64,000 nucleotides of DNA from Isoetes taiwanensis (Eukaryota; Streptophyta; Lycopodiopsida; Isoetales; Isoetaceae). Positions 44,987-53,892 of this stretch are shown piece after piece. Location of the stretch: assembly GCA_021234155.1 (NCBI GenBank), contig JAJEKV010000225.1, positions 310,001-374,000 on the forward strand, in the 5' to 3' direction. A program made the position numbers and the translations under genes. Within the stretch, counting starts at the first letter, position 1. Each line of letters opens with the position of its first letter. The notes below the pieces were generated by a model that was not told the origin of the DNA, made no database searches, and saw only the letters and a program-made list of their open reading frames with translations.

Positions 44987-44999
44987 AAAAACATCCGTC
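44987..44999 (+). repeat. LINE target-site duplication, left
   Basis: AAAAACATCCGTC is identical to 53880-53892 after the poly-A tail. Confidence 0.9.
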
Positions 45000-45110
45000 G
45001 AGGGCATGGGGAAAAGTAGCCAAGGAGGCGCTGCTGTGCGCGCCGTTTTGGCGACCGAATGTCATGGCTGCCAGGCTCGATCCTGAGTGAGCTCTACTAA
45101 GCTCCTCTAC

Positions 45111-45330
45111 ATCGGCCTATCTAGAGCAGAGCAGGGAAGATGGAGTTGAGCAATATTGCTCCTCCTGGCTTCCTCCTTTTCTAAGCAACTCTAAAGGCAG
45201 AGGGCAGAGCTAGTGTGCTAACTCTGCCATATCTGATATTAAGCGAGCTCTCATGAGCCCCTCTACATCGCTATACACAGCACACTAAGAAGGAGTTGAG
45301 CTATGCTGCTCCTCCTGACCTATTATCCAT
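45111..45330 (+). repeat. Two-copy repeat in the LINE leader
   Basis: Blocks with CTCTACATCG ... GGAGTTGAGC ... GCTCCTCCTG occur at about 45111-45172 and 45256-45320, a period near 145 bp. Repeated 5' leaders in L1 elements often act as promoter modules; that role is inferred. Confidence 0.7.
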
Positions 45331-45354
45331 CTAAACAGGGAAACAGCAGCCGGA

Positions 45355-45672
45355 ATGAGCAGTCCACATCTATCTAGGCACAGAAGCTATTCTAGTGCTA
45401 GGTTCTTCACCATAATCACTTATGGAGATCTCTATATGTGTGGCTGGTTGGAGGGCGAATTCAGCCAACTCTGGGAAGCCCTTGTTTTGGATAGAATCTT
45501 TCCTGGTCATCTCTTTCAAGCAGAAGCCTGGCTCACTCCACAAATCCCAGTCCAACTAATCGACTATTGGCTGGGCGACTATATGGGAGACAGGAATATC
45601 TCGGCTGCTGGCATTTTCCATGTTTACTGCCACTGGGCCCCCGGCAAAATCATTGTTAAAATCTATACTTAG
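45355..45672 (+). CDS. LINE small ORF a (105 aa)
   Basis: ATG 45355 opens a 105-codon frame. Its core reads YGDLYMCGWLEGEFSQLWEA, then RIFPGHLFQAEAW, IDYWLGDYMGD and a final FHVYCHWAPGKI. The pattern GWLxG-x4-LW-x2-L-x3-R, a hydrophobic block, and FxVxxxW near the end is shared with small ORFs b and c, so the three are paralogues made by tandem duplication inside the LINE. I know no named family with this pattern. It has no signal peptide or evident membrane span. It could be an RNA-binding or regulatory accessory protein; that is a guess. Confidence 0.6.
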   Translation: MSSPHLSRHRSYSSARFFTIITYGDLYMCGWLEGEFSQLWEALVLDRIFPGHLFQAEAWLTPQIPVQLIDYWLGDYMGDRNISAAGIFHVYCHWAPGKIIVKIYT

Positions 45673-45972
45673 CTGCTAGTTTTGCTTGGATGCTGATAGA
45701 TCCAAAGCTCTTGCAGTCAACTCTTGACCAGTCTGTCCTTCCTCTTGGGACCTCTTGCATGAAAGGTCAATTTGTCCCTTTGCTGCCGGGTTAGCTAGCT
45801 GCCTCATGAAACCTTTAGCCTCTGCAACTTTCATAAATTCATATGTGTTTGCTGAATCCACATTATGCTTTACAATCATTTCTCTGGCTCGGCTTGGGCT
45901 CTATATAAGCCCCTTTGCTGAATCTGCAGCACACAACTCCAGCCACAAGTGCCTGCATCTTCCGATGTCTCA

Positions 45973-46356
45973 ATGGGACTACCCCTGCCGCTCTTCTTAA
46001 ACTCCCCACCCTCTCCAGCAAACTATTCTCCATCCCCCTCTGATATTGAGATCTCAAGATATTTCGTCACCATCGAGGGTTCCCAACAGCTAGCCTGTGG
46101 ATGGTTGGAAGGTCCTGCTGCAGAGCTGTGGACATACTTAGTTGACGAGAGGCTGGTCCCAGAGATTTATTTTGTTGGTGAGAGTGGCACGCCTGCTGTT
46201 AATCCAGAGGAAACACTGAGGCTTTGGAGGCTCGAGTTTCTTGGAATTGATCGTCCGGCTTTTGCCACCTTCTACGTTCACAGTGCCTGGATGATAGATT
46301 CAGTCAAGCTAGATTTGCACAAGGTGCCTCTCCCATTTGAGATCATATCTGATTGA
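45973..46356 (+). CDS. LINE small ORF b (127 aa)
   Basis: From ATG 45973 (the frame is open from at least 45949) a Pro/Ser-rich leader is followed by ACGWLEGPAAELWTYLVDER, EIYFVGESG, LRLWRLEFLGID and FATFYVHSAWMIDSVKLD. It is the longest and clearest member of the three-paralogue set. It ends TGA at 46354-46356, and the next member starts 30 bases later. Uniform reading through about 380 bp without a stop, together with similarity to its neighbours, argues that it is real. Confidence 0.65.
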   Translation: MGLPLPLFLNSPPSPANYSPSPSDIEISRYFVTIEGSQQLACGWLEGPAAELWTYLVDERLVPEIYFVGESGTPAVNPEETLRLWRLEFLGIDRPAFATFYVHSAWMIDSVKLDLHKVPLPFEIISD

Positions 46357-46385
46357 AACTTCTAGAATGGTTTCTCGAGATCTCA

Positions 46386-46736
46386 ATGGATCAAAGCCCC
46401 TCTGTTACATCGCTGCACTCATCTTCCTCTGATCCTAGTTCGGTTCATCTGCACTATTCCCCGCCATACATAGTCCGCACAGCCATTCTTGCTAATCATA
46501 ACTATATCTGGTGGGGCTGGCTCAGAGGGGATCTGGAGGATATCTGGACATCCTTGATTGATAGGCAAATCCTTTTTCTAGATCAATTCTATTGTGTTGG
46601 TGGACTGCAACTTTTGGGAGATCTTCACAATACAAGGAGGGTGGTTAGACTGCTTGCCCGGGGATCACTCACAGCCTTACCTCTTCAAGCTTTTCTTGTT
46701 AAGCGTACATGGTTGAATGATACCCTTTTGGGTTGA
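46386..46736 (+). CDS. LINE small ORF c (116 aa)
   Basis: ATG 46386 opens a Ser-rich leader, then NYIWWGWLRGDLEDIWTSLI, RQILFLDQFYCVGG, RRVVRLLARGS and LQAFLVKRTWLNDTLLG. It shares the GWLxG...W...L...R and F.V..W..D patterns with ORFs a and b. The stop at 46734-46736 lies 12 bases before the ORF1 start at 46748, so the four ORFs sit almost head to tail, as if translated from one transcript by reinitiation or ribosome shunting. Confidence 0.65.
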   Translation: MDQSPSVTSLHSSSSDPSSVHLHYSPPYIVRTAILANHNYIWWGWLRGDLEDIWTSLIDRQILFLDQFYCVGGLQLLGDLHNTRRVVRLLARGSLTALPLQAFLVKRTWLNDTLLG

Positions 46737-48535: not shown

Positions 48536-48706
48536 AGGATGATAAGTAATTTTTGTGATGGATCGTGCTACATACATATCGGATAAGATAAACTTTTTGT
48601 ATGGCGTGGGATGCAGTAGAGTATGCCTAAAGCAAACGTTGATGGTCGTGGAAGCTAAAGGGGGTAAGATCTCACCTTATGCTCCCAATCTCCGATTGCT
48701 ATTTGC

Positions 48707-49339
48707 ATGATCCTATATCCCCCTACCCCCTGGTTTATGAGCTATTTTCAACTTGCTTGTATAATGATAAGTATGTTTCCCTCTCGTAAGTGGTTGTCTT
48801 TTTATTGTTGCTTCATGAAAAGACTAATGTTAGTAAGGAAGCCATATAATTTTGGGATTGATCATATTGAAAATGGGGTTGGGCAACAACAAGCCATGCC
48901 CAATAGCATCGATGGAGGTCATTGCAACCTCAAGCTGTGGAATAGCGGGGTGCAGGATGCTATTGAATTTGTCAATAGCAACCTCGTGACTCGGGAATAT
49001 ATAGGTCTAGACATCGATATGTCACCTTGTGAGGGTCAACTTAAGAAAACTTTAGGGGGCTCCCCTATCATTTTCACCAAAAGGAGGGAATGTCACACAA
49101 AACGACAAAGAGGAGCATCACTTATCCATATTTTATACGGATACTATAGGATGGGTTATGGTTTTGGATGGGCCGTCGATCTATGGTTACCACAATTATG
49201 CAATAGGTACCCAACCTATAGGTACCCAACCTGCCCGTGTAAAGATGAAAGACAAGCATTCATATCTAAGGCGAGCTGGTCTATTGGAAAGGGTTTGCAT
49301 TCATATCTAAGGCGAGCTGGTCTATTGGAAAGGGTTTGA
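48707..49339 (+). CDS. Spacer ORF between LINE ORF1 and ORF2
   Basis: A 210-codon frame fills the unusually long gap between the main ORFs. Its start is hydrophobic (CIMISMFPSRKWLSFYCCFM) and the rest is mixed. Two tandem 42-bp copies (about 49257-49339) add SYLRRAGLLER-like repeats at the C-terminus, and GGTACCCAACCTATA is doubled near 49207. No family is recognised. It may be chance coding in a long spacer or captured sequence; 49336-49605 continues open in another frame. Confidence 0.3.
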   Translation: MILYPPTPWFMSYFQLACIMISMFPSRKWLSFYCCFMKRLMLVRKPYNFGIDHIENGVGQQQAMPNSIDGGHCNLKLWNSGVQDAIEFVNSNLVTREYIGLDIDMSPCEGQLKKTLGGSPIIFTKRRECHTKRQRGASLIHILYGYYRMGYGFGWAVDLWLPQLCNRYPTYRYPTCPCKDERQAFISKASWSIGKGLHSYLRRAGLLERV

Positions 49340-49609
49340 ATCATTATTGGCAATCATATGCAATGCCTCTTGGGAAGAAGCCGAGTTCAGAGTACACCAA
49401 TGTACCAATGTTGGGTGGTATGAATTGGCAATCATATACCATGTCCCCTGGGGAGAGGCCGCGTCTAGCATCAATGATAGTGGAATATGAGACAAATGAG
49501 CATGGGGAGTTAGGAACCCGAGGAGAGATGGGCTCAGGAATCTATGCTATGGGACAAACACCCTCTATGGTGGTAGGTGCTATTTTGAGCCCTTTCTTAT
49601 ACTAAATAT

Positions 49610-50908
49610 ATGAAGATAGTTTCCTGGAATTTACGTGGTATTAAGGGCACTCTCAAGAGGGCTAGGGTCCTTGCTGCTATTAGATCTATGAAAGCTGACA
49701 TCATCCTTCTGCAAGAGCATAGACTCCCAACTTTTGAAGCGACATGCCTTGGTAAATGGGTTAGTGATAGCTATGATTCAGTTACATGCCCTGCGCATGG
49801 TACTAAAGGGGGAACAGGCATCTTGTGGAAGGGTCAGTCACCCATAGGCTCGTACTGTAGTAGGGGTGGTAGGTGGCAAGCAGTATTATTTGATACCTTA
49901 GAAGTTAAGTGGGGAATTATTAATATCTATGCATCCAATAAGCCCGCTGAGAGAGCTGCCCTATGGCTAGAAATAGAGACATGGATTCTACACCAGCATC
50001 ATGAGATTAAGAACTGGATATTGGGAGGTGATCTTAATATGACGGATGTATGGGATCAAAAGATAGGATTGCATAGGAACTTGACAGGAGAGGAGCAAAG
50101 GACTTGGCAATCTCTCATTAACAATGTTGGATTTACCCCATCCAATGTATCCTTCTCCTGGTCAAATAAACAGAAGGGACAAGACCGAGTATATTGTTTG
50201 CTGGATAGATTTTACATGGCTAATCCTTCTGCTCCCTTTATGGACAGAAGTTATGTTACTGGTGACTTGGCATTCTCTCATTCTGACCATGTCCCGCAAC
50301 ACTTGACTATTGAGGGAATTGCTGTTATGGGGGAGAGAAAGAATATCCCCTTTAAATTTAATACTGCATGGCTGGGTAAAGAGGCCTTCTGTAAACCATT
50401 TAAGGAATACCTTCTCTCCATTGAAGTCAGTGAGTCACCTAGTATGAAAACTTGGGCTAAGTTGCTCCGTATGATGAAAGACTGGGCGAAAGAGTGGGGG
50501 AAGAACAGAGCTTTGGAGTTTAAAAAGAATAAGAATGAGGTCTACAATATGCTTAAAATAGTAAGGCAAGGTCTTCTGGTGGATCCATACTGCGAGGCAA
50601 GTCAAAAGCTGGAGGAAGAACTGGAGGCCAAAGCAAAGGCTATCGAGGAGGATGAAGCTAGAGGGGCAGCAGTCCGTTCTAAAACTAAATGGTATGCGGA
50701 GCTGGACCATGAAAACTCTAAGTGCTTCTTTCGCTTAGCAGGTGCGAGATTGGGTGAAAATAGCATCACATCTATGCTTGACGACAAAGGAGTAATTCTG
50801 CAGGATCAGAAGGAGATCTCTGCTTATGTCAGAAACAGTTTCCACGATATGTTCAAGGAGGACACTATGCCCCCTCTAAACGGCTTTTGCGGTGTCCCAG
50901 ATGGATAA
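49610..50908 (+). CDS. LINE ORF2, endonuclease domain
   Basis: The frame starts MKIVSWNLRGIKG and shows the apurinic-endonuclease motifs in order: LLQEHR (catalytic Glu, residue about 36), a GTKGGTGILWKG block, IINIYAS, GGDLNMT (Asp-Asn, about 143-148), LDRFYMA and SHSDHVP (catalytic Asp-His, about 225-230). A coiled, Lys/Glu-rich linker follows (EELEAKAKAIEEDEARG) leading to RT. All catalytic residues seem present. The frame ends at a TGA at 50908, where RT continues in another frame. The enzyme nicks target DNA to prime reverse transcription. Confidence 0.92.
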   Translation: MKIVSWNLRGIKGTLKRARVLAAIRSMKADIILLQEHRLPTFEATCLGKWVSDSYDSVTCPAHGTKGGTGILWKGQSPIGSYCSRGGRWQAVLFDTLEVKWGIINIYASNKPAERAALWLEIETWILHQHHEIKNWILGGDLNMTDVWDQKIGLHRNLTGEEQRTWQSLINNVGFTPSNVSFSWSNKQKGQDRVYCLLDRFYMANPSAPFMDRSYVTGDLAFSHSDHVPQHLTIEGIAVMGERKNIPFKFNTAWLGKEAFCKPFKEYLLSIEVSESPSMKTWAKLLRMMKDWAKEWGKNRALEFKKNKNEVYNMLKIVRQGLLVDPYCEASQKLEEELEAKAKAIEEDEARGAAVRSKTKWYAELDHENSKCFFRLAGARLGENSITSMLDDKGVILQDQKEISAYVRNSFHDMFKEDTMPPLNGFCGVPDG

Positions 50909-51835
50909 ATTAGACTGGAGTAGTGGTATCACTGCAGAGGATAATTTGCGCCTCATGGGTGATCCCACCGAGGAGGAAATATATAAAACCTTATGCTCCC
51001 TTGCCCATGGAAAGTCTCCGGGTCCAGATGGGTTCCCGCCTGAGTTCTTTGTGGAATTCTGGGAAGTGCTAGGTCCATTCTTTATAAGAGCAGTTAAGGG
51101 AGCATGGTCCACAAGGTGTCTTCGTTCCTCCCTAACATCGGGATTCATTACATTAGTTCCTAAGGTTGATAGACCCCAGCACCTAGGGGAGTGGAGGCCC
51201 ATAGCTCTAACAAATGTATTATATAAGGTTATTGCTAAAACTATAGCCAATAGATTGAAGCCTATCCTAAATAGGCTCATTGGCAATGAGCAATCGACAT
51301 TCTTGCCGGGGAAGATCCATACTTGATAACTATTTGGCTGTAGAGAAGGTCTCCATTGGGCCAAAAGATCACAACAAAAATGTATTCTACTCAAGCTGGA
51401 CTTTCGGAAAGCATATGACACTTTGAGGTGGTCGGGACTAAGGGAAGTTATGGCTAGGCTGGGGTTCGATCCTCAGTTTATCAAGGCGGCTTTTGGTGCG
51501 AATAAGTTCGCAGCAGCTTGATTACGGTTAATGGGCAACCATCAGGACTCTTCCACCTAAGAAAGGGAATCAGACAAGGTTGCCCATTAGCACCCTACCT
51601 ATTTCTACTAATGGCTAGTCTCTTAAGCAAAATTATCGAGTAAAGTTGTGGGCCGGTTCTCTTAATGGGCTTGACTTCCTCTAAGCGAGGAGAGATTGAC
51701 AATAATGCAATATGCGGACGATACCTTTGTCTTCCTAAGGTATGATGATATGAGTTTTCTTTGCCTTTAAAGATTGTCTCCTGCTCTTTGCTGTTTTTGC
51801 GAGGATCGGGCTCAATGCACGTAAATGCGCAATTA
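50892..51835 (+). pseudogene. LINE ORF2, reverse transcriptase domain, frameshifted
   Basis: The frame 50892-51326 carries GKSPGPDGFPPEFFVEFWE, LVPKVDRPQHLGEWRPIALT and YKVIAKTIANRLKPIL, RT motifs 0-2. After shifts near 51325 the catalytic block LDFRKAYDTL (first Asp, 51399) appears, then LRKGIRQGCPLAPYLFLLMA (about 51560-51620), and YADD at 51711-51722 in yet another frame. All RT active-site residues survive, but at least three shifts and several stops break the frame. It overlaps the endonuclease frame by 17 bases, so the first shift is likely a single-base error or mutation. Confidence 0.9.
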
Positions 51836-53448
51836 TGTGGCCATTCGAGGAGGAGGTAGATGCCAGGGTTAATTCTTTAGGTTTCCAGATCATTAAAGCA
51901 GGGGAAGCTACCAAGCTGCTTGGGTTACCACTTGTGGTATCAGATAATCTTAAAGGTCTATGGACTCCGATTCTTGATAAACTGCGGAAAAAGGTAGGAC
52001 TATGGTCTTCTAAAGGCCTTTCCATTCTTTGGAAGAATAACGATTGGCTAATCTTTGTACTAGCCTCCTCCCATGTATACTACTCCTCAATTATACTAGC
52101 TCAAAAAGGGGTATATAATCAAATTCAAGCTATTATCAGGAAGTTTATCTGGGGTGGCATGCACTTGGTTGCCTGGTCAGAGATATGCAGGGATAGGAAA
52201 AATGGAGGCCTAGGTTGCAAAGATATCTTGACCACGAGGCCCAAATTCTATCAGCCAAATATGTCGGAGAGCAATCGGGGAGGTGCCCCCGCTCGGACGA
52301 GTTTTGTTCGATACTGGCTTGGCCTATGTAAACTGAAAGGGAAGCCCTCTCTCCCCAGAGACGAAGCAGGTGCCATGTTCTTTAGATATAGGATAGCTCC
52401 TGGGACCTCTCCAGTGATGCGGAAGATTCTACAGGCCTGGTGTGAAATACAGCAACTTTTCTCCCCTATGGAGCCTGTACTAGATTCAGGAAACCTTAGC
52501 ATCTTCTGGAATACTCATATCTGGAGAAGGGGTGATCTCCCCCTTGCTCTATCTCATCCCCGTATCTTCACCAAATGGAAGGATGCAGGCATCACTAAAT
52601 TGCACCACCTATGGAGGAACGATAGGTGGACATCATGGTCCAGGTTCAAAACTCTAATCAGAAATCCAGGTGAGGCTGATAGAAAGGTCTTTAAGGAAGT
52701 CATAAAGAATGTACATGTCCTTACTGGTAAATGCGGCCCAGGAGAAAAATGGTTATGTCATGGTTCAGAAAAGTTTGAAGTTGGTAAGATATACCGCCTG
52801 CTTGTTCAACCAAGCCCTCTTAAAGCTACTAATACTCTTCGGCTGAGCGAAAGAGAAGTGATCAAGCTCCTAGGTGATTCCTGGACTACCCTTTGCTCGA
52901 GAAGGATTCAATATTTCAGATGGTTAGCCCTACAAGGTGGCCTTAATACGCGTGTCAGGCTAATCGAAAGAGGCACTGCTGTTCCATTGGAGTGCCCACT
53001 TGGCCATTCTACGCCCGAGAGGATCTGACACATCTCTTCTTACATCCCACGTATTATATGCTTCTGGCGTTGGGTTGCCCCCATTATTGGGCTAGAAGAT
53101 GCCAGTCTAGATTGGCCCCAGATAATCACCTCCAGCGAAAACGACAAAATATCTGCAACGCTAGTCAATATTGCCTTGTGGGTAGTATGGAAGCATAGAT
53201 GTGAGGTTGCTCTTGGAGGGAAAGCTATCTCCTTAGCAAAACTAAAGAACTGGTTCAACTACGAAGTTGCATTAATGGCCCTTGCACACCACAAGAAAAT
53301 GGGGAGTGCATATCACAAGGATTTGGATAGGATTGGAAGACTCGAAGGGTTCTATACATTCTTCAGGTGCAACTGGGATGGAAAAAAGGAAGATGAACAT
53401 GCTCTAACCGGGGTACTGGAAGCAGGTGAGGAGAACATTGGCTCGTAA
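51835..53448 (+). pseudogene. LINE ORF2, thumb and zf-RVT C-terminus
   Basis: The long frame 51835-53028 has EATKLLGLPLVVSDNLKG, KGLSILWKNNDWL, KFIWGG and GGLGCKDIL, the usual post-RT region. It then has VGKIYRLLVQ and CSRRIQYFRWLALQGGLNTR, the zf-RVT start. The zinc-binding CPLGH-type block lies near 52990, where the frame shifts to EDLTHLFLHPTYYMLL. A second shift near 53180 gives VVWKHRCEVALGG and a tail to 53448. Two shifts separate otherwise good protein. Confidence 0.88.
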
Positions 53449-53857
53449 TGGTGATGGAGTTTATATGGTCTCCTCCTCTCTGAGATGATCATGGCATGGG
53501 GACCTGGAATGCTGAGGTCATACTCCTATAGTACCATCAATAAGGCAAAGGTGACTTCATATAGTTGCACAATCCCCATAGTACTGTGCTGATGTGGAAG
53601 AGGTAGAGGAAGCCAACCAGGTGGTACTTCCATAGTACTCATCATCACGGGAAGACGTGTGATCCTGCGACCCCTGAGGTACTTGTGCCTTATTAACAGG
53701 GAAGAAGTTGAGGTAACCTCACCAAAGTACAAGAACCCCTACTGTGATTCACCCTCAAGACTGGAGTGATTTGACCCTGTGCGGTTTTTTCTTCAAGCTG
53801 ATCCATGGGGATCATGTACTATATTTATAAATTAATAGAGTTTCAACCTTACACTCA

Positions 53858-53879
53858 AAAAAAAAAAAAAAAAAAAAAA
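53858..53879 (+). terminator. LINE poly-A tail
   Basis: An uninterrupted A-run follows ATTTATAAATTAATAGAGTT and CACTC. It marks the 3' end used in target-primed reverse transcription. The last A residues merge with the duplication. Confidence 0.9.
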
Positions 53880-53892
53880 AAAAACATCCGTC
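53880..53892 (+). repeat. LINE target-site duplication, right
   Basis: AAAAACATCCGTC matches 44987-44999. Confidence 0.9.

Follow-up and report, generated by a model that had tools for sequence, protein, structure and literature searches.

An L1 LINE in the genome of Isoetes taiwanensis carries three small open reading frames (a, b, and c) ahead of ORF1 that almost certainly are genuine genes belonging to a clade of plant L1 LINEs. Sequence comparison identifies a, b, and c as ancient tandem paralogues of one small domain, which we name the GWLEG domain, and indicates that they are under purifying selection and conserved across divergent subfamilies of the same genome. We consider it about an even bet (probability ~0.5) that these ancient paralogous LINE genes supply an accessory factor, produced by reinitiation, that would assemble with the RNP or with a host factor.

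The earlier note on this DNA had described three open frames of 105, 127, and 116 codons upstream of ORF1, with coordinates that proved exact. They lie in the window, by which we mean the whole 64,000-nt stretch analysed here, within a full-length L1 LINE insertion of ~8.9 kb that has a 13-bp target-site duplication and an (A)28 tail (Table 1). The target-site duplications occur on both sides, and a, b, and c are therefore inside the LINE. The element displays the traits of a plant L1: an APE-type endonuclease (EN) and an RT (PF03372 and PF00078, both above cut-off), an ORF1 with a DUF4283 domain, poly(A), and a target-site duplication. It departs from the two-ORF layout, which we took as a usual trait of plant L1s rather than as a condition of membership, with three further conserved ORFs in the window and one to three in its relatives. 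ORF2 of the window copy is broken, with the EN, RT, and C-terminal pieces in differing frames. The earlier note had recognized this break; its companion statement, that all three small frames remain open, needs a correction for c, which is not fully intact because its end is frame-shifted. Long spacers between ORF1 and ORF2 are also found at loci L023 and L025, and in L021 the ORF1 and ORF2 frames meet. At the 5′ end, homology to the window extends up to 45031-45068 in eight of ten compared copies of the window subfamily. The 5′ UTR contains imperfect direct repeats ~150 nt apart (45068-45317), with more repeated matches there in related copies, and by analogy these repeats recall monomer-type L1 promoters.

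Table 1. Features of the L1 LINE insertion in the window, and ORF d of a second LINE clade.
Feature	Position	Strand	Details
Left target-site duplication AAAAACATCCGTC	44987..44999	.	exact 13-nt direct repeat with 53880-53892
5′ UTR, two imperfect repeat units ~150 nt apart	45000..45354	+	pairs 45068/45224 and 45137/45287
ORF a, 105 aa, GWLEG-family protein	45355..45672	+	
ORF b, 127 aa, GWLEG-family protein	45973..46356	+	MGxPLP start
ORF c, 116 aa, GW-family protein	46386..46736	+	final codons out of relatives' frame in window copy
ORF1, 595 aa, DUF4283 domain	46748 (ATG)..48535	+	PF14111, E 2.1e-17
Inter-ORF spacer, 1,074 nt	48536..49609	+	exact 41-bp tandem duplication at 49256-49338
ORF2, endonuclease part	49610..50908	+	PF03372, E 3.1e-12
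ORF2, start of RT domain, different frame	50892..51326	+	PF00078, E 4.5e-7
ORF2, C-terminal part, different frame	51835..53028	+	PF13966, E 1.5e-4, below curated cut-off
Poly(A) tail, (A)28	53857..53884	+	
Right target-site duplication AAAAACATCCGTC	53880..53892	.	first bases merge with poly(A)
ORF d of L027	L027 872-1261		

The motifs through which the resemblance of the three frames had been noticed are largely as described, with GWL(E/R)G-x4-(L/I)W and FxVxxxW present in all three, and L-x3-R present in a and b but replaced by L-x2-R in c. Pairwise local alignment gave scores of 109 for a and b, 50 for a and c, and 66 for b and c, each reached by none of 1000 shuffles. In profile comparison with hhalign, a and b matched at 99.2%, b and c at 95.9%, and a and c at 92.1%, with E-values that are those of single comparisons and hence flattering. 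The GWLEG domain has a core of ~90 residues and is mostly acidic. The last strand in all three families follows the pattern (V/L)-x-(K/E/D)-x-(Y/H), an end that c of the window loses by the frame shift: tails resembling YWVELY, WLEIY, or LLELY close 14 of 16 c frames, the frame of L010 terminates early, and the ending ..WLNDTLLG is confined to L001, which is the window locus itself. The open frame of c in L023 contains no ATG.

We searched the genome (1.66 Gb in 1110 contigs) with a, b, and c, which yielded 2244, 1547, and 284 first candidates, respectively, and at least 150 matches for each. Among the matches listed, and as read by eye from the tables, the aligned stretch is free of stop codons in 131 of 150 for a, 94 of 150 for b, and 121 of 150 for c, where some b matches are counted with a stop codon that terminates the ORF itself, as in L013. 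The proposal that an L1 LINE carries tandemly duplicated accessory genes is thereby borne out: other copies of the LINE in the same genome contain the ORFs, mostly stop-free among the matches listed, and dN/dS among copies is non-neutral and mostly far below 1 (mostly 0.05-0.33 for a, b, and c together, open copies only). Estimated by NG86, dN/dS spans 0.05-0.32 in the eight pairs that yielded a value for a. For b it spans 0.08-0.23 in 14 of 15 such pairs (L003-L009 gives 0.54), and for c it spans 0.09-0.48 in 13 (the two highest being 0.35 and 0.48). These values come from chosen pairs rather than from all pairs, seven inside the window subfamily and 19 between elements, and from open ORFs only, with a of L006, L007, and L011, b of L006 and L011, and c of L007, L008, L011, L014, L015, and L018 excluded; dS is saturated in many distant pairs, which consequently have no ratio. 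Between the window (L001) and L003, NG86 ratios are 0.18 for a, 0.08 for b, 0.15 for c, and 0.13 for ORF1, and between L023 and L024 they are 0.08 for a, 0.12 for b, and 0.25 for ORF1. For a of L021 and L022, dN is 0.061 at a dS of 1.17. YN00 ratios lie above those of NG86 in most pairs with a YN00 estimate, and reach 0.47 for a and 0.65 for b. Third codon positions carry the most substitutions in all 13 pairs tested.

For a, dN is lower than for ORF1 in 11 of the 13 pairs with both values (the exceptions are L003-L009 and L003-L005), although the ORF1 rows are open frames truncated at stops or at the ends of loci, some of them with termini that are unaligned or non-coding, and this can inflate the dN of ORF1 relative to a. 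The divergence of b and c is similar to that of ORF1 (dN between the window and L012 of 0.63 for b, 0.60 for c, and 0.62 for ORF1). Identity in a exceeds identity in EN-RT, for which the rows include decayed copies, in seven of eight pairs with L021 as the query and five of eight with L027 as the query; between the window and L021, a is 53% identical, EN-RT 43%, and ORF1 21%. Judged by sequence identity, which in most of these pairs is higher for a, the pace at which a evolves is about as slow as that of EN-RT.

The arrangement of the small ORFs differs among elements. In a sample of 20 loci taken at even rank steps, 12 from the a list (every 12th) and eight from the c list (every 16th), ORF1 lies downstream of 10 of the 12 a matches, with a second GW domain in between in three of the 12, and downstream of all eight c matches, with b upstream in five. 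No ORF1 match was found within ~2.9 kb downstream of the remaining two sampled a matches, L042 and L049, which are either broken copies or stand-alone genes. Four layouts occur ahead of ORF1: a alone (L021 and L022), a-c′ (L026, the second ORF of which is denoted c′), b-c (L012-L020 and L025, where the close pairs that were compared share 424-432 nt ahead of b), and a-b-c (the window, L023, and L024). Within ~1.1-1.5 kb before b, no a was found in b-c elements. The existence of lineages with one, two, and three copies, and of b-c elements without a, means that no single member is needed by all. In two RT trees, seven GW-bearing elements form one group with a support of 1.0, apart from six elements (L027-L032) of a second set described below. 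Inside the GW clade L021/L022 split first and then L026, and the two trees disagree on which of the window element and L025 branches first. In a domain tree of 26 sequences, b groups across subfamilies with a UFBoot of 79 and c with 94, and c joins c′, on a very long branch, with 80. Because b and c each group across subfamilies, the GWLEG duplications are most likely older than the split between subfamilies. One reading, which we infer only tentatively because the trees have no root and the base of the domain tree is poorly supported, is growth from one to three copies followed by loss of a.

In the window, a and b are separated by 300 nt, b and c by 29 nt, and c and ORF1 by 11 nt. Across copies in which both ends can be placed, these gaps are 249-300 nt, 9-31 nt, and 1-24 nt, respectively; in L026, a overlaps c′ by 37 nt, and 44 nt lie between a and ORF1 in L021. 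The short b-c and c-ORF1 gaps recur in divergent subfamilies, which lends support to the polycistronic layout that the earlier note had suggested, and their length suggests coupled translation. In five of the six other placeable copies of the window subfamily (L002, L003, L004, L006, L009, and L010) the stop codon of c (TAA or TAG) lies 1 nt before the ATG of ORF1, and in L010 it lies 16 nt before it; the 11-nt gap in the window is due to the frame shift in c. Given the 249-300 nt between a and b and the 44 nt between a and ORF1 in L021, coupling cannot account for every junction.

Start contexts are only medium in a and in most b, so some leaky scanning is possible. However, five b-c elements have 5-10 ATGs within the 424 nt before b, and within a and b out-of-frame ATGs show no clear depletion relative to synonymous shuffles, which makes plain leaky scanning hard to sustain. 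Termination-reinitiation would be a more likely route to c and ORF1. Within c of six b-c elements (L012, L013, L016, L017, L019, and L020), a thin set that includes the close pairs L012/L019 and L013/L016, an out-of-frame ATG is absent from five (expected 0.8-2.2 each) and L016 has one (expected 1.1). An ATG-free c could help ribosomes to pass on to ORF1. Reviews record the dependence of a downstream LINE cistron on an upstream one for SART1 and human L1 (PMC2881922, PMC5972666).

The impression that the three ORFs belong to no named family withstood database searches. Pfam gave no match above its curated cut-off for the window ORFs or for eight sequences from each of the a, b, and c alignments (best E 0.2, 12 bits), a profile search of PDB chains gave nothing significant (best E 0.31 for a, none for b, and 0.5 for c), and none of the 30 pattern matches to the a family in IMG/VR was confirmed. 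AlphaFold models, made for a and b only, are weak (mean pLDDT of 46 and 58.7) and have in common the order strand-strand-helix-strand-helix-strand-strand. A fold search with the weak b model returned no trusted match (best PDB E 0.67, best viral E 0.044), and VIA-align with the same model, used to compare it with the KCTD C-terminal / GFRP-like fold, gave a kinetoplastid protein at Z 4.7, KCTD1 at Z 4.6, and GFRP at Z 3.3, with all rows below Z 5. The pI is 4.2-4.7 for b, 4.8-7.0 for a (6.2 in the window), and 4.3-7.2 for c (7.0 in the window). These mostly acidic values speak weakly against plain RNA or DNA binding, and so against the nucleic-acid-binding role that had been put forward for the proteins.

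A different small ORF occupies the same place in another LINE clade. We assembled a second set of 14 DUF4283 loci (L027-L040), selected by visual inspection because they did not occur in the a, b, or c lists and therefore non-random, and found a, b, or c domains in none of the 14. Like the GW-bearing elements, LINEs of this set such as L027 have a small, mostly acidic ORF, here called d, before a DUF4283 ORF1, in 10 of the 14 loci (L027, L028, L029, L030, L032, L033, L034, L035, L037, and L038). The sequence of d has no detectable relation to a, b, or c (hhalign probability 0.06-0.23%). It encodes ~130 aa with an MDE(S/A)LLE start and spans 128-138 codons in nine loci and 78 in L038, where it is broken. 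Variation in d is greatest at third positions in seven of seven pairs. In the near-identical L027, L033, and L034, d ends 7 nt before the ATG of ORF1, and in five others the distance is 212-268 nt. In L027, d, ORF1 (a 662-codon frame), and ORF2 (a 1201-codon frame) are all open. At L036, the DUF4283 match falls in or near a 924-codon open frame that starts with a gag-like stretch, as judged by eye, and this locus is perhaps not a LINE.

In the reading that we prefer, one element RNA would serve for the translation of a, b, and c, and ribosomes would reach c and ORF1 by termination-reinitiation. Their products would assemble with each other and with the element RNP (ORF1p/ORF2p), or with one conserved host factor, and this GWLEG assembly would act as an accessory factor required for retrotransposition, in which the duplicates probably took different positions in a hetero-oligomer. 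Considered for its function alone, a role as an accessory factor of the LINE RNP falls somewhat short of an even chance; we favour it because an arms race accounts less well than a fixed partner for how strongly a is conserved. A broader and slightly more tentative proposal is a multi-cistron RNA encoding up to five proteins (a, b, c, ORF1p, and ORF2p), where the paralogous trio would be hetero-oligomeric, needed for retrotransposition, and made serially by stop-start coupling, and where small 'ORF0-like' proteins before ORF1 would perhaps be general in plant L1s. Such proteins may be a general and overlooked trait because the unrelated d fills the same place in a second clade.

Many plant virus accessory proteins counter host RNA silencing or chromatin repression, and the GWLEG proteins could act on the host in this way, with duplication widening the range of host targets. 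We regard this as unlikely, even though it would suit small accessory proteins without a recognised fold and a copy number that differs among lineages. The conserved GW in each window ORF (one each in a and b, and WWGW in c) is also reminiscent of AGO-hook motifs. AGO-hook GW/WG proteins have several GW/WG motifs in a disordered region. Against the host-directed explanation, the GW closes a predicted strand, and the core to which it belongs is predicted, weakly, to be folded. Moreover, arms-race proteins are usually fast-evolving, and the low dN/dS, together with a dN that in 11 of the 13 pairs is lower for a than for ORF1, disfavours both this explanation and the suggestion in the earlier note of a host-defence factor, if understood as an arms race.

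Another explanation would make the ORFs mainly upstream ORFs that set the amount of ORF1p, with peptides that matter little. Their position right before ORF1 with short gaps, and the unrelated d at the same place in another LINE clade, are in keeping with it, but amino-acid conservation extends over the whole core with few non-synonymous changes, neither of which a plain regulatory uORF needs, and we consider it improbable. Very little weight falls on a captured host gene that still serves the host with the LINE as its carrier: the two of 12 sampled a matches without a nearby ORF1 (L042 and L049) would agree with such a gene, but LINE ORF1 follows in 18 of the 20 sampled matches and the ORFs have no Pfam family match. 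Chance open frames without function, for which short length alone might argue, have a negligible probability and are ruled out by conservation, the third-position excess, and dN/dS.

The primate L1 ORF0 is an extra small ORF in the 5′ part of L1 that is antisense and primate-specific. The GWLEG ORFs likewise are extra small ORFs in the 5′ part of an L1, but they are sense, duplicated, and common to divergent subfamilies. Subclades of plant LINEs have reportedly been treated by Heitkam et al. in 2014. LINEs are generally described as elements with one or two ORFs (PMC2881922), and the poplar element Celine is described as a plant L1 LINE with two ORFs after a 635-bp 5′ UTR (PMC11288735). As in Celine, the elements studied here have a DUF4283 ORF1, an endonuclease-RT ORF2, poly(A), and a target-site duplication, but compared with the description of Celine they carry between one and three additional GWLEG cistrons upstream of ORF1 (PMC11288735). 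In the silkworm LINE SART1, UAAUG translational coupling joins ORF1 to ORF2, as reviewed (PMC2881922, PMC5972666). Close stop and start codons are found here too, with TA(A/G)-G-ATG at the c-ORF1 junction in five of six placeable window-subfamily copies other than the window, but the putative coupling would join small cistrons to each other and to ORF1 rather than ORF1 to ORF2. We found no description of extra cistrons before ORF1 in plant LINEs in the literature, as judged by the titles and abstract openings of top-ranked results, with Repbase and most subscription papers outside this scope, and their status as unreported holds within that scope.

A conserved accessory family that was duplicated in place, and kept while EN-RT fell to ~40% identity, implies that part of the replication cycle of these L1s is still unknown. 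The elements also offer two things that can be tested: a natural series of one, two, and three copies, and what may be a naturally occurring example of serial coupled translation in a plant RNA. A further arrangement is seen at G000:C947:1745313-1745933 (-), where the b and c matches both fall in one 263-aa open frame, which perhaps represents a fused b-c copy.
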